Part shown: one piece after another, positions 53,374 through 59,923 of the stretch
Numbering within the stretch: position 1 is the stretch's first letter
Layout: each line of letters starts with the position of its first letter
Source: Lacimicrobium alkaliphilum
Lineage (GTDB): Bacteria > Pseudomonadota > Gammaproteobacteria > Enterobacterales > Alteromonadaceae
Direction: 5' to 3'
DNA length: 64,000 bases
NCBI RefSeq assembly: GCF_002591895.1
Contig: NZ_NISX01000008.1
Coordinates: 1-64,000, forward strand
Made by a program: the position numbers and the translations under genes
Notes under the pieces: model-generated
Seen by the model: only the letters and a program-made list of their open reading frames with translations
Told to the model about the DNA's origin: nothing
Database searches by the model: none

Positions 53374-53852
53374 TTTCTGATTGCGCGATCAGATTCCGTA
53401 AAAGGAAATGTCACCACAGAGACACAGAGATCACAGAGGCTTGGGGGTAAGAGATCCTGACTTTCGTGAGGATGACGGTGCGACTGGCATTTATTCGTGT
53501 CTTTTCGTGCCTTTCGTGGTCAAGCACTTTTAGACCAGGCCAATAAATCGGCCCCTGCATGATATTGCTCTTCTCCGTGTTCTCCGTGCCTCTGTGGTTA
53601 GCTTTATCTTTCTCAAAGGACGCTGGGCCTGTCCAGCACCTTTGGTTACTCAATGCTGATGGGGACGCAGTTGCATATTCAAAGGCTGCTGGATGCCCGA
53701 CAACAACATTCGGGCATGACCAGAATCAGGCGAAGTTCTCCCGTATTCCGATGCGCTGCATACGGGTATATCGAGCACCTCGGGTTGCTCAGTTGTCGGG
53801 CTAAAGCCACGACCTACAACCCTCGATGGTGCCGGGCTACCAAACTGAAAAC
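53374..53852. repeat. Intergenic block of dispersed CACAGAG-type repeats
   Basis: No gene. CACCACAGAGACACAGAG (from 53412) has a related inverted copy reading TCTCCGTGCCTCTGTGGTTA on the plus strand (to 53600), with CGTGCCTTTCGTGGT between (to 53520). These belong to a degenerate family of intergenic repeats seen in many bacterial genomes. A 43-bp hairpin repeat follows at 53681. It fills the ftsX-glrR gap. Confidence 0.7.
53681..53723. repeat. 43-bp hairpin repeat, copy 1
   Basis: 38/43 identical to 59627-59669. Both contain an inverted CCCGA/TCGGG around CAACAACAT. They lie in two repeat-rich intergenic regions 5.9 kb apart, on either side of the glr block and rpoH. Confidence 0.75.
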
Positions 53853-55214
53853 TTACTCCCTGAACGCGTCCGGGGTCAGATGGTGCTTATCCAGCAACTT
53901 GTAGAATTCAGTGCGATTACGACCTGCGATCCGTGCAGCCTGAGTAACATTCCCCTCTGTGGCTTTCAGTAAATCAGCCAGATAACGGCGTTCAAATTCA
54001 TCTCTTGCACGGGCAAACGTCGGCAACGAGCTGGGCTTATCACGCAGCGCTTTTTGCACCAGTTCAACAGGAATAAGCGGGCCATTGCACAGGGCAATCG
54101 TTTGCTCCACCACATTCTGCAGTTGTCTGACATTCCCGGGCCAGGGGGCAGAAATCAGAATTTCCATTGCCTCATCGGAAAAACCGGTAACCTTTTTCTT
54201 GCTCCGGGCAAGTACCTGATTTAAAAAGTGGTTCACCAACAGCGGAATATCATCCCTTCTGTCGGCCAGAGGTGGTAACCGCAGCTCCACCACGTTAAGA
54301 CGGTAATACAAATCTTCCCGGAACTGTCCCTCGGTAATCGCCTGCTCCAGATCTCTGTGGGTAGCACTGATAATTCTTACATCGATGGGCACTGACTGGG
54401 TCGCTCCAACCGGGCGCACTTCACGCTCCTGCAAGGCACGTAACAACTTAACCTGAAAGTTAAGCGGCATATCTCCGATTTCATCCAGAAACAACGTACC
54501 GCCATTAGCTGACTGAAACAGCCCCACATGCTCCCGGTTGGCTCCGGTAAACGCGCCTTTAACATGACCAAATAGTTCTGATTCAAACAAAGTCTCAGGA
54601 ATCGCCGCGCAATTTACCGGCACAAATGGCGCATCACACCGCTCACTGACCTGATGAATCGCGTTCGCCAGCAGCTCCTTACCCGTGCCGCTCTGACTAT
54701 GAATCAGCAAACTGACGTCACTGTCAGCAACCTGTCGGGCCTGCTGAAGCAACTCTTCCATCTTGTTACTGCGACTGATAATGGCGCTGCGCCAGTTGCC
54801 AGCATCTTTGTGTTGCTGATCTTCCTCCACCACGGGGTGCAGGCGAATCGCATCAGTCACAGTGCTGAGTAATTGCTGACTGTCAAAAGGCTTGGTCAGA
54901 TAGGAAAACACCCCTTTTTTAGTGGCTTCGATGGCATCAGGAATGGTCCCATGGGCAGTCAGAATGATCACCGGTAAACCGGGGCTACGCTCACGGGTTG
55001 CAGCAAATAACGCCATCCCATCCATACCCTGCATACGCAGATCGCTGATTAACAAATGGGGTTTAAAACTTTCCAGAATCCCCAACGCCTGTTTACCATT
55101 GTCGGCGCTCTGAATTTCATATCCTGCGCCGGTCAATCGCATACCGATCAACTTCAGCAAACTGGGATCATCGTCAACCACCAAGACCCGCTTCTTCTCC
55201 TGTTCAGTTGCCAT
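53853..55214 (-). CDS. glrR: Sigma-54-dependent response regulator GlrR (QseF)
   Basis: 453 residues. Receiver domain with phospho-acceptor Asp58 in LLISDLRM; AAA+ domain with Walker A SQSGTGKELLANA and the sigma-54-contact motif GAFTGANREH; Fis-type helix-turn-helix NVTQAARIAGRNRTEF at the C-terminus. Third gene of glrK-qseG-glrR, whose order matches enterics. Two perfect GlrR-type sites and a sigma-54 promoter lie divergent from glrK. Confidence 0.95.
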   Translation of the reverse strand: MATEQEKKRVLVVDDDPSLLKLIGMRLTGAGYEIQSADNGKQALGILESFKPHLLISDLRMQGMDGMALFAATRERSPGLPVIILTAHGTIPDAIEATKKGVFSYLTKPFDSQQLLSTVTDAIRLHPVVEEDQQHKDAGNWRSAIISRSNKMEELLQQARQVADSDVSLLIHSQSGTGKELLANAIHQVSERCDAPFVPVNCAAIPETLFESELFGHVKGAFTGANREHVGLFQSANGGTLFLDEIGDMPLNFQVKLLRALQEREVRPVGATQSVPIDVRIISATHRDLEQAITEGQFREDLYYRLNVVELRLPPLADRRDDIPLLVNHFLNQVLARSKKKVTGFSDEAMEILISAPWPGNVRQLQNVVEQTIALCNGPLIPVELVQKALRDKPSSLPTFARARDEFERRYLADLLKATEGNVTQAARIAGRNRTEFYKLLDKHHLTPDAFRE

Positions 55215-55779
55215 TATTATTCACTTCTCGCTTAAGAATATTTTGCTCAATGAGCTTGAGCTGCTGCAATTGTTGTTCCAAAGATTGCTTCTCAAGCAAA
55301 ATCTGATCGAGACTCTCCGACGTGTCCACCAGTTGCCGTTGCCACCTGATATTTTCAGTCAACTGGTCAAATAAGGCGTAGAAGATACCGGGAATCGCCA
55401 CTTTTTGCTGATTAAATAAACGGCGTAGTTCAGTTCTCGCCTGATGGGGGTTCTTCACCGGTGAATTCGGCAAACTGTACAATAACACCAGCTTCAGCAT
55501 ATCAGTCACATCCCCATGCTGCTTACCCTGTCGTCGTTTCACCACTTCCTGTTCCAGAACCGGGATCGGCTGTTCTTTTAGCCAAAGATAATACTGACCA
55601 AAATCCTTCCTGATATCCCCACTGCGATGCTTATCAACTTTCAGTTCTGTTGACTTGCCAGACTCCGCACCTAAATCTTCAACTGGCGCATTGATTTGTG
55701 GCGACAGGGCCTGGCAACCGGAAAATAACGACGCCATCAGAAGCGCTGCCGCAATCCTGCAACTCCTTTTCTCAGACAT
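55204..55779 (-). CDS. qseG: QseG-like outer-membrane lipoprotein
   Basis: 191 residues from the ATG giving MSEKRSCRIAAALLMASLFS, with GGAGCAAAAAGAAT upstream. Lipobox LFSGC. The rest is helical, with C-terminal Leu/Gln-rich coiled coil. Its place between glrK and glrR and overlap with both identify QseG, which in enterics modulates GlrK activity from the outer membrane. Confidence 0.85.
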   Translation of the reverse strand: MSEKRSCRIAAALLMASLFSGCQALSPQINAPVEDLGAESGKSTELKVDKHRSGDIRKDFGQYYLWLKEQPIPVLEQEVVKRRQGKQHGDVTDMLKLVLLYSLPNSPVKNPHQARTELRRLFNQQKVAIPGIFYALFDQLTENIRWQRQLVDTSESLDQILLEKQSLEQQLQQLKLIEQNILKREVNNNGN

Positions 55780-57205
55780 ATTCTTTTTGCTCCACCAATA
55801 TCGCAGGGAATTGTATCTCAAAGCAGCATCCCTCTGACGCTTCCTTTAAACGGATACTTCCCTTGTATTTTTCAATCAGTTCCCGGGTAATTGTCAGCCC
55901 CAGACCGCTTCCTTTAACTTTAGCCTGAGGTTGCTGGCTGCTTTGGAAAAATGGTTCGAATACCTGTTCTCTGTCATCAATCGGAACACCGGGCCCCTGA
56001 TCGGCAACCCTTAACCACCAGGTATCGGTTTCAAAACCAGCGGTGATGCTTATCTCTCCTTCGGATGGCGAGAACTTCACGGCGTTGGAAACAAGATTAT
56101 CCAGGATCACCCTCAACTGCTCCGGATTAATCCGCAGCAGATAATCGTGCTCAGGCAGCCTGACCGTCAACGCTTTACTTTGTATCTGCAATTGACGATC
56201 CGCTATCACCTTTTGCAAAGCCAGTCCTAACAGACCACTCTGCTTCAGCGCTTTGGCATGATCTAAAACCATATTAAAGTTGAGCAGATCCTCAATCAAT
56301 TGCTGCAACCGCCCCACGCTGTTGCGGATAATAGCGCTCACTTCTTCCTGCTCCGGATTAAGCTTTCCGGTCGTGCCATCATACAGCAACTCAGCCCCCT
56401 CACGGATAGCCGCCAGCGGCGTTTTCAGCTCATGGGATATGTGCCTGATAAAACCGGTTTTCTGTTTTTCCAGTGTCAGTAGTTTCTCTCGCATCGCCTC
56501 GAGGATTTCGGCGACTTCGACAATATCCATCGCGCCTTTAACCGTCACCGGACGATCAAAATCGCCTCGTTCCAGGCGGCGGATCTGCGGTTTAAGCTGA
56601 TTAATCGGGCCGGTAATCAGCCGTACAAAGAGTATCGCAATCAGCATTGAAGCAGGGATCACCAGTGCAGACTGTAATAACGTCTCACGCAACTGATCGG
56701 CTTTTTGTTCAATAGCCTCAATTTCAGTATCAATAATACGCCGGTTAAGACGAAACAAATCATTGCTCTGACTGTTCAGTTGGCTATACCCCCGCTGCAG
56801 TCGAGCGATGGGGAACTCAGCGCCTGCCTGCGCTAATTCCTCATGCAGGCTCTCTTCCTGCCTGAGTAATTTGGCCACTGCAGGTTCAATAACGGGATTA
56901 TTATTGGCCACCATTTCAGTTGCCAGCTGCCGAAATTCTTCACGTAAATGCTGATAACTGTCCCAAAGAGCCTGGTCTTTGAGAACCAGGTACTGACTGG
57001 CGCCGCGCTCCATATTGTTCAGCAACTGGCTTACCTGACGACTCACGTAAACCAGCCTCGATACTTGCTGTATGGCACCCGTTCCCTGAACCGAAAGCTG
57101 TTCTATGCGCACCAGAGCCAGCCCTAACGCCACAACCAGAGGCAACCCCACCAAAGAGAAGCCGAGCAACGTGAGTCTTCTGATTGAAAAAGTTAACAAT
57201 TTCAC
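55772..57205 (-). CDS. glrK: Sensor histidine kinase GlrK (QseE)
   Basis: 477 residues. TM1 about 12-31, periplasmic helical domain, TM2 about 177-197, HAMP, then HisKA with phospho-acceptor His258 (RHISHELKTPLAAI) and ATPase motifs DNLVSNAVKFSP, DQGPGVPI and GSGLGL. First gene of the operon. In enterics GlrK responds to envelope conditions and phosphorylates GlrR. Confidence 0.93.
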   Translation of the reverse strand: MKLLTFSIRRLTLLGFSLVGLPLVVALGLALVRIEQLSVQGTGAIQQVSRLVYVSRQVSQLLNNMERGASQYLVLKDQALWDSYQHLREEFRQLATEMVANNNPVIEPAVAKLLRQEESLHEELAQAGAEFPIARLQRGYSQLNSQSNDLFRLNRRIIDTEIEAIEQKADQLRETLLQSALVIPASMLIAILFVRLITGPINQLKPQIRRLERGDFDRPVTVKGAMDIVEVAEILEAMREKLLTLEKQKTGFIRHISHELKTPLAAIREGAELLYDGTTGKLNPEQEEVSAIIRNSVGRLQQLIEDLLNFNMVLDHAKALKQSGLLGLALQKVIADRQLQIQSKALTVRLPEHDYLLRINPEQLRVILDNLVSNAVKFSPSEGEISITAGFETDTWWLRVADQGPGVPIDDREQVFEPFFQSSQQPQAKVKGSGLGLTITRELIEKYKGSIRLKEASEGCCFEIQFPAILVEQKEYV

Positions 57206-57293
57206 ATTCGCTCCTTACAAAACCCGCTGATCATGCCCTAAAACCCCTGCTCAGCTGAAGCAAATTGGCTCTTTTCTGGCATATTTCTTTTAC

Positions 57294-57311
57294 TGTCTGC
57301 TATTTGCGACA
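57294..57311. promoter_or_regulatory. GlrR binding site 1 (TGTC-N10-GACA)
   Basis: TGTC, ten bases, GACA: an exact match to the GlrR recognition pattern described in E. coli. Centre about 220 bp upstream of the predicted sigma-54 start, a normal enhancer position. Also about 90 bp from the glrK start, so autoregulation is possible. Confidence 0.75.
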
Positions 57312-57416
57312 TTCATTTAATCACCAGGGAATATAATCCAAAGCGTTGATATATATAACATTAAACAGATTCCTGAGGATGCCATGCCAATCCACAATTG
57401 AGACTGACTCAAACAT

Positions 57417-57434
57417 TGTCTCTTTTTTGCGACA
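57417..57434. promoter_or_regulatory. GlrR binding site 2 (TGTC-N10-GACA)
   Basis: A second exact TGTC-N10-GACA. Its spacer TCTTTTTTGC and that of site 1 (TGCTATTTGC) both end in TTTGC or TTTTGC. Centre about 100 bp upstream of the sigma-54 start. Confidence 0.78.
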
Positions 57435-57496
57435 GATTTCCTCCTCTCATTCGGCAAAAAACGTCATGATCCTACCCATTTCGGGCTCTTGCCAGT

Positions 57497-57513
57497 TTGG
57501 CACGTTATCCGCA
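57497..57513 (+). promoter_or_regulatory. Sigma-54 promoter
   Basis: TTGGCACG-TTAT-CCGCA: the -24 GG (57499-57500) and -12 GC (57511-57512) elements are exactly 10 bp apart. The -24 part is perfect to consensus; the -12 part is CCGC for TTGC. Predicted start near 57524, followed at once by the hairpin CCTGTT-TC-AACAGG (57527-57540). Confidence 0.75.
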
Positions 57514-57616
57514 TTGTCTCTTGCAACCTGTTTCAACAGGCTTGTGGAAAAGAGGCTGGCAAGGGACGTATTCACCTTTGGCCTCCTCTTAACAATCAGG
57601 AGTTAAGGAGAAAGTG

Positions 57617-57826
57617 ATGAAAAAATTTGCAATGTTAATCGCGGCGGTAATGAGCTTTGGTGTTCTGGCAACAGAAGCTGATACCACCGCAACGAAAGAA
57701 GAAGCCAAACAGGAAGCGCAGCAAAAAGCTGAAAAAATAGCGAAAGAGCTGCAAGCCAAAAAGGCGGAAATCGCTGCTGCGGCCAAAGAAGCTAAAAAAG
57801 AGCAAGCAGAAGAAGACAAAAAATAA
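57617..57826 (+). CDS. Small exported Lys/Glu/Ala-rich helical protein, predicted GlrR/sigma-54 target
   Basis: 69 residues. AAGGAG lies 6 nt before the ATG. Signal peptide MKKFAMLIAAVMSFGVLA, then TEADTTATKEEAKQEAQQKA and a continuous charged helix ending EQAEEDKK. No Cys or lipobox, so it is probably a soluble periplasmic coiled coil. It is divergent from glrK and has its own sigma-54 promoter with two GlrR sites upstream. No known family recognised. Confidence 0.82.
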   Translation: MKKFAMLIAAVMSFGVLATEADTTATKEEAKQEAQQKAEKIAKELQAKKAEIAAAAKEAKKEQAEEDKK

Positions 57827-58153: not shown

Positions 58154-58495
58154 ATGAATAAAGACGCAAACCGCTACGTGAAAGTCGGTGACTGGATGTT
58201 TGAAGTGAAGATGGTTCGTGCCATACGGGTTGAAGAATACGGCAAGCCTTATGATGCCGTTGCACATATGACCTTCAATGGCGATGAAGTCTATGTGGAC
58301 AGCCAGCTTAACAGCGCCAATGAAAACCTGGGACGCAAGGATCTCGAAGCCTTTCTCGATTTTGCCCAGATGATGGAAGTACACAACTTCCGCTACGACA
58401 GATTCCAGAATGGTGAACGACGCAGTCGCAACATAAAATTGGTTGAAACGGTTGAAAATGCCGATCCTCAGCCCAATATAAGGTTAGTTAAGTAG
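58154..58495 (+). CDS. Conserved-looking hypothetical protein
   Basis: 113 residues from the ATG giving MNKDANRYVKVGDWMFEVKM, with GGGGGAAAG upstream. A single soluble domain: VDSQLNSANENLGRKDLEAF and FLDFAQMMEVHNFRYDRFQN. No signal or membrane segment. Family not recognised. Lies just upstream of rpoH on the same strand. Confidence 0.7.
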   Translation: MNKDANRYVKVGDWMFEVKMVRAIRVEEYGKPYDAVAHMTFNGDEVYVDSQLNSANENLGRKDLEAFLDFAQMMEVHNFRYDRFQNGERRSRNIKLVETVENADPQPNIRLVK

Positions 58496-58610: not shown

Positions 58611-59462
58611 ATGAGCACAAAAATGCATTCAATGGCGTTGAGCGTTCCTCAGTCAGGCAGTCTGGATACCTATATGCAGGCCGTCACCAGCATCAATATG
58701 CTGAGCGCAGAGGAAGAGCAAAAATTAGCTGAACGACTGCATCATGAAGGAGACCTTGAAGCAGCCCGCAAGCTGATCATGTCTCATCTGCGTTTTGTGG
58801 TGCATATTGCCAAATCTTATTCCGGCTATGGTTTACCTCAGGCAGATCTGATCCAGGAAGGAAATATCGGTCTGATGAAAGCCGTGAAGCGTTTTGATCC
58901 TACAGTGGGTGTGCGCCTGGTTTCATTTGCCGTACACTGGATCAAAGCGGAAATTCATGAATTTGTTTTAAAGAACTGGCGTATCGTTAAAGTCGCGACC
59001 ACCAAAGCCCAGCGCAAATTGTTCTTTAACCTGCGTAAAGCTAAAAAGCGCCTTGGCTGGTTTACTCACGAAGAAGTGCAGAAAGTGGCCGAGGATCTCG
59101 GCGTCAGCACCAAAGAAGTGTTGCAAATGGAAGCGCGTATGAGCAGCCAGGATCAGACCTTTGATCTGTCTGCAGACGATGATGAAACCGGTAATTTCGC
59201 GCCGGTTCAGTATCTGGAAGATAAGAGTCCTGACGTAGAATCTGAAGTGATGAATGCCGACTGGGATGATTCTGCCAGCCAGCGTTTACATTCCGCCATC
59301 AAGACTCTGGACGACCGCAGCCAGCATATTATTCAGTGCCGCTGGTTGTCTGATGACAAAACCACCTTGCAGGATTTGGCAAACAAGTACGAAGTCTCTG
59401 CCGAGCGTGTCCGTCAGATTGAAAAGAACGCGATTAAAAAGCTCCAGTCCGCAATGGTCTGA
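58611..59462 (+). CDS. rpoH: RNA polymerase sigma-32 factor
   Basis: 283 residues. Region 2 with [20 protein letters not shown], the RpoH box [13 protein letters not shown], and region 4 helix-turn-helix [20 protein letters not shown]. Heat-shock sigma factor. GAGAGGG precedes the ATG. It is separated from ftsX by the glr block. Confidence 0.98.
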
Positions 59463-59506: not shown

Positions 59507-59923
59507 ATGGGATACCTGATAAGGCACAAAACAAAAACCTTCACCGCCGAGTCGCTCAGAGCACAGAGATTTAAAGAGAGCGCACCTAAACATCTCAGCG
59601 GCTCAGCAGTTAATTTCGCTCTTCTCAAAGGTTGCTGCATACCCGATAACAACATTCGGGCATGAACAGCGGCAAGGGAGCATTCCCCTGTAGGGCCCAA
59701 TTTATTGGGCTGCTAAGACTATGCTTTGGCTCATTCGTCGAATCAATTCGACCCTACAAGGGGTGACCTGCTTAATTCGTCAGGGAGCTCGCAAAGGCGC
59801 AAAGACGTGGAGGGAGAACGAAACCGGTTGTTGGTATCCCTGCGTCGCAGCGCCTCTGCGAGAGATAGTTGTTTGCTGTTAGTGGTTGAAGGCCTTTACC
59901 ACCAACCACTGAAAAATGAAGTA
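59507..59923. repeat. Repeat-rich intergenic region after rpoH
   Basis: No gene. Contains CACAGAG and GCAAAGGCGCAAAGACG type sequence related to the ftsX-glrR region, the second copy of the 43-bp hairpin repeat, and the hairpin GCCCAA-TTTA-TTGGGC (59695-59710). Confidence 0.6.
59627..59669. repeat. 43-bp hairpin repeat, copy 2
   Basis: 38/43 identical to 53681-53723, same orientation, containing CCCGA/TCGGG as an inverted pair. Confidence 0.75.

Follow-up and report, generated by a model that had tools for sequence, protein, structure and literature searches.

A predicted GlrR/sigma-54 target promoter beside the glrK operon of Lacimicrobium alkaliphilum, directed at a small exported protein

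GlrR-controlled promoters in Escherichia coli and at the Lacimicrobium glrK locus

Most work on the GlrKR system (QseEF) concerns enterobacteria, and there it acts through GlmY and rpoE. At the E. coli glmY promoter, three GlrR sites are spaced 33 and 63 bp apart, and transcription reads towards glrK to yield a small RNA. QseF functions together with IHF to drive glmY and it also activates rpoE, both of these being envelope regulators, while QseG acts on QseE in the periplasm (PMC6075780). The QseF consensus has been given as TGTCN10GACA (PMC8745638), and sigma-54 has been linked to the cell exterior (PMC3162934).

A comparable arrangement occurs in Lacimicrobium alkaliphilum, within a 64-kb stretch of DNA analysed here as a whole (the window). 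Judged by sequence comparison, the locus is probably (at a probability of about 0.75) the GlrR/sigma-54 target promoter of a glrK-lipoprotein-glrR operon and faces outward, towards the gene of a small exported protein. The operon occupies the minus strand. The sensor histidine kinase gene glrK (55772..57205; GTG start) encodes HAMP, HisKA and HATPase domains (Pfam), and its product shares 32% identity with E. coli GlrK over residues 48-468 (E 3e-61). The NtrC-type response regulator encoded by glrR (53853..55214) has receiver, sigma-54 activation (GAFTGA) and Fis-type helix-turn-helix domains (Pfam); its best NCBIfam model is that of GlrR, at 634.7 bits under a cut-off of 763, and it shares 58% identity over 444 residues with E. 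coli GlrR, including an identical recognition helix (AGRNRTEFYKLL). Between them, in the position of qseG, lies a lipoprotein gene (55204..55779) with the lipobox LFSGC. Its product agrees with E. coli QseG in position and lipobox but has no detectable similarity to it (E 1.9 only), and it had no match in Pfam or NCBIfam. A dispersed intergenic repeat with a hairpin like TGCCCGATAACAGCACTCGGGCA was observed at about 53625-53720 and 59635-59670 of the window; it also occurs on contig C34 of the same genome (179837-181323), with copies 702 bp apart.

The promoter diverges from glrK, as an initial annotation of this DNA had stated, and the principal signals named there were all recovered on the plus strand. 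Two exact TGTC-N10-GACA sites, TGTCTGCTATTTGCGACA (57294..57311) and TGTCTCTTTTTTGCGACA (57417..57434), lie 123 bp apart and adjoin a sigma-54 -24/-12 element, TGGCACGTTATCCGCA (57498..57513), which has the claimed GG-N10-GC spacing, agrees with the consensus at 10 of 12 positions and predicts a transcription start at about 57524; rpoN is encoded in the genome. Of the 18 bases of the second site, 17 agree with the glmY site at -134 of E. coli and one differs. The -12 half of the sigma-54 element reads CCGC versus the consensus TTGC, a form common to all three species of the genus compared. Two features absent from the initial description were also located: an exact IHF-type site, TATCAACGCTTTG (57339..57351, minus strand; consensus WATCAANNNNTTR), between the two GlrR-type sites, and a stem-loop, ACCTGTTTCAACAGGC (57523..57543, plus strand), that would form the 5' end of the predicted mRNA (about +1 to +21). 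With the E. coli glmY promoter, the locus shares an activator family with an identical recognition helix, TGTC-N10-GACA sites, a sigma-54 promoter, the involvement of IHF (here a predicted site) and a location beside glrK, but it has two sites in place of three, and it reads away from glrK into a gene for an exported protein.

Within the 64 kb, the only exact TGTC-N10-GACA matches are those at 57294 and 57417, a count near that of chance (0.88 expected; 27 of 100 shuffles reach two). The sigma-54 element as a bare motif is not rare in the window, and the exact IHF consensus occurs there seven times, including 57339-57351. The site pair is noteworthy because of its 123-bp spacing beside the sigma-54 element and the conservation of both features, not because of its count.

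The genus comparison involved three species, that of the window (G000) and two congeners (G001 and G002). Both congeners have the GlrR-type sites at the same 123-bp spacing, the promoter 81 bp further on and the ORF, and neither is a case of the gene persisting after the sites have gone. Where the mRNA is predicted to begin, a short block is likewise kept in both while the surrounding DNA has diverged, and the stem-loop is conserved and folds in each of the three species. The IHF-type site is also exact in G002 and was not found in G001. Differences in the ORF between G000 and G002 are distributed 8/9/25 over the three codon positions (dN 0.14, dS 1.0); by this measure it evolves as a coding sequence under purifying selection. 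In G001 and G002, a separate lipoprotein-like gene was seen to have a GlrR-type pair of its own, 77-78 bp apart (L133:209-304; L190, about 253-348); the corresponding place in the window's genome lacks the gene but still has a pair, 76 bp apart.

The exported protein and the genes downstream

The ORF that this promoter is predicted to drive (57617..57826, plus strand) starts at ATG 57617, with AAGGAG ahead of it at 57605-57610. As had been claimed, it encodes a 69-residue protein rich in Lys, Glu and Ala, with a predicted Sec-type signal (about 57617-57670) and a mature remainder of 51 residues that contains 14 A, 12 K and 11 E and is nearly neutral. The term "coiled coil" in the initial annotation was not borne out, since the AlphaFold model is one long helix of moderate confidence (pLDDT 68). 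No EF-hand was matched by Pfam, whereas the products of relatives do match, and CpxP/Spy-type families were not among the Pfam matches up to E 1. Identity with the acid-shock protein Asr was considered and rejected, the match to NCBIfam NF033636 reaching 17.1 bits against a cut-off of 50. A search for homologues among 60 relatives, as had been suggested, gave protein matches within the genus only; locus L027 contains a related K/E/A protein that shares EEAKQEAQQKAE. Low-complexity sequence of this kind says little about function.

Downstream on the same strand lie a gene for a 113-residue protein (58154..58495), which is the usual downstream partner of the control module, and rpoH (58611..59462). 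The 113-residue protein belongs to no Pfam or NCBIfam family and is well conserved, being kept next to glrK in the order; a mixed alpha/beta fold is predicted, and a fold search gave no more than weak, partial resemblance to GNAT proteins (TM about 0.45, best E 0.008). No plus-strand terminator was found between 57826 and rpoH, and transcription may continue from the 69-residue ORF into the 113-residue gene.

Recurrence of the control module and exchange of its product

Upstream of the glrK homologues of the same order, the site pair and sigma-54 element were found in 38 of 43 loci, which are related and not independent, compared with 2 of 9,200 Markov shuffles. The distance between the sites is 119-123 bp in 31 of the 38, and that from the second site to the promoter is 68-71, 80-83, 102 or 112 bp, values that differ by roughly one turn of the helix, which would fit a need for the bound proteins to face each other. 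Both intervals are enriched in IHF-type matches (28 and 24 of the 38 loci versus 10 and 5.6 expected). This recurrence and the congeners lend strong support to the initial proposal that GlrR and sigma-54 control the small exported protein, and we regard such control of the 69-residue gene as very probable. By the same comparison, the module is not peculiar to this genome: it persists in relatives, although the gene that it is predicted to drive differs.

The predicted product follows lineage. That of the window's genus is the K/E/A protein, and in 25 loci, two of them in Colwellia, it is an exported EF-hand protein (Pfam having been run on five). In family f9, an unnamed protein of about 110 residues, the homologue of that encoded at 58154-58495, stands directly after the promoter. 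Genus g16 (L024 and L025) retains the sites and promoter with no exported ORF seen, which makes the product dispensable to the module. In three betaproteobacteria (L061, L112 and L124), a bactofilin gene follows GlrR-type sites and a sigma-54 element, and in enterobacteria the product is glmY, reading towards glrK. Each main product type corresponds to one clade of the GlrK tree, indicating that the product changed rarely and along lineages. No description of such lineage-wise exchange was found in the literature searched, which was mostly open-access and probably left much of the work on GlmY outside.

The EF-hand proteins encoded divergently from glrK in Alteromonadales (for example in Colwellia, L071 and L083) resemble the present case in module, position and orientation, and in being small, exported and charged; they differ in having calcium loops, with no detectable similarity to the K/E/A helix. 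In six loci from several genera (L036, L039, L042, L045, L050 and L140), the EF-hand gene that follows the module is tandemly duplicated. The bactofilin loci share with the present one GlrR-type sites and a sigma-54 element that diverge from glrK, but the sites are 67 bp apart in two of the three and the product is a bactofilin (PF04519).

The initial annotation had called for a genome scan for further site and promoter combinations, and this pattern-based scan returned two more intergenic candidates of good geometry, a count that sets aside the intergenic or partly intergenic matches L185, L186 and L188. Matches that fell within long ORFs or a tandem repeat on contig C34 were discarded as chance. 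TGTC-N10-GACA is not enriched genome-wide (63 occurrences versus 120 for the reversed control), and hence single sites mean little. The first candidate is the gene of an exported 181-residue, OsmY-like protein with two BON domains (L002; contig C1, 153423-153965, minus strand), where GlrR-type sites 131 bp apart are followed after 69 bp by a sigma-54 element. Nearly all of 30 relatives examined have kept this element, while the GlrR-type sites were confined to G000, G002 and genus g16; elsewhere the gene probably responds to other activators. The second is a conserved structured RNA with an intrinsic terminator (L019:4005-4160; contig C12, about 295004-295159, minus strand), found in each of the genus's three species (100, 92 and 89%) and without a confident Rfam family. 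It has a sigma-54-like promoter and, in G000, three TGTC-N10-GACA sites upstream, with a GlrR site lying 82 bp ahead of that promoter. TGGCACGGAGCTTGTA is present in G002, and the GlrR site is exact only in G000.

A protective role in the envelope and its alternatives

The following mechanism would account for the locus. Phosphorylated GlrR would bind the two palindromic sites, IHF would bend the DNA between them, and sigma-54 polymerase would start at about 57524. The resulting mRNA, which can begin with the stem-loop, would encode the precursor with its Sec signal, and the mature chain, charged and for the most part helical or disordered, would act in the periplasm to shield components of the envelope during stress sensed by GlrK, in the manner of Asr or OsmY. 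The conserved control module would then have several products, each specific to a lineage, and this gene would encode one of them. Asr and OsmY are likewise exported, charged, stress-type periplasmic proteins, and the BON gene of this genome bears the same GlrR/sigma-54 signals; the 69-residue protein differs in lacking a BON domain and in its match to the Asr model lying far under the cut-off. A protective role has close to an even chance.

It is also possible, though unlikely, that the true target is the downstream 113-residue protein, and perhaps rpoH, with the small exported ORF as an optional first cistron. In family f9 (L141-L147, L149 and L150) the site pair, with a sigma-54 element 68-70 bp further on, directly precedes that gene, and g16 has the promoter and a gene of this type without the small ORF; the absence of a detected terminator up to rpoH and the conservation of the protein point the same way. 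Against this, 327 bp separate the two genes here, the larger one did not turn up within 1.5 kb at several EF-hand loci or at L027-L029, and the small ORF is itself under purifying selection.

More doubtful is a CpxP-like feedback regulator that would be driven by GlrR, enter the periplasm and tune GlrK or the lipoprotein. The gene directly adjoins the kinase operon, its signal sequence points to export, and the action of QseG on QseE provides a periplasmic precedent (PMC6075780), but the protein matches no CpxP-type family and genus g16 does without it. That other lineages have an EF-hand protein, none, a bactofilin or an RNA in its place would be surprising if it were a specific partner of a conserved kinase, and such swapping speaks against that role. 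Protection of the envelope is preferred over feedback on GlrK because the other genes behind GlrR/sigma-54-type promoters encode exported (EF-hand, BON) or cytoskeletal (bactofilin) proteins and the published GlrR targets regulate the envelope.

A small RNA, either the leader (57524-57616) or the whole transcript, with the ORF incidental, is very improbable despite the precedent of E. coli glmY and the conserved 5' stem-loop. The GlmY model (Rfam RF00128) matched its E. coli control and nothing in the locus or genome, no GlmZ-type RNA was returned by Rfam at the locus, the leader folds no better than shuffles (z-score -0.29), no terminator was found, and codon-position pattern and dN/dS are those of coding sequence. 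As for the stem-loop, it was rejected as a general feature of the module, being seen in the genus and inconsistent across relatives. The initial annotation had the circuit aimed at a protein instead of a small RNA; GlmY was indeed not found, but the structured RNA described above has a GlrR site and sigma-54-like promoter, and the phrase should be dropped since this genome may use GlrR for an RNA as well. That the sites and promoter are chance matches, each motif alone being at chance frequency in the window, has a negligible probability in the face of congener conservation and order-wide recurrence with helical spacing.

It is a tentative proposal, held at somewhat less than even odds, that through a fixed control module whose product is exchanged among lineages one envelope-sensing circuit has repeatedly been re-aimed at different envelope effectors, the K/E/A helix being a new kind of small envelope-protective protein. 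Another order and betaproteobacteria have kept the GlrR regulator, its sites and its promoter type, which there would drive proteins. This suggests either that the older role of the circuit was the direct control of envelope proteins or that the circuit is readily re-aimed, and the protein-coding genes would provide concrete, testable targets for the GlrKR system.
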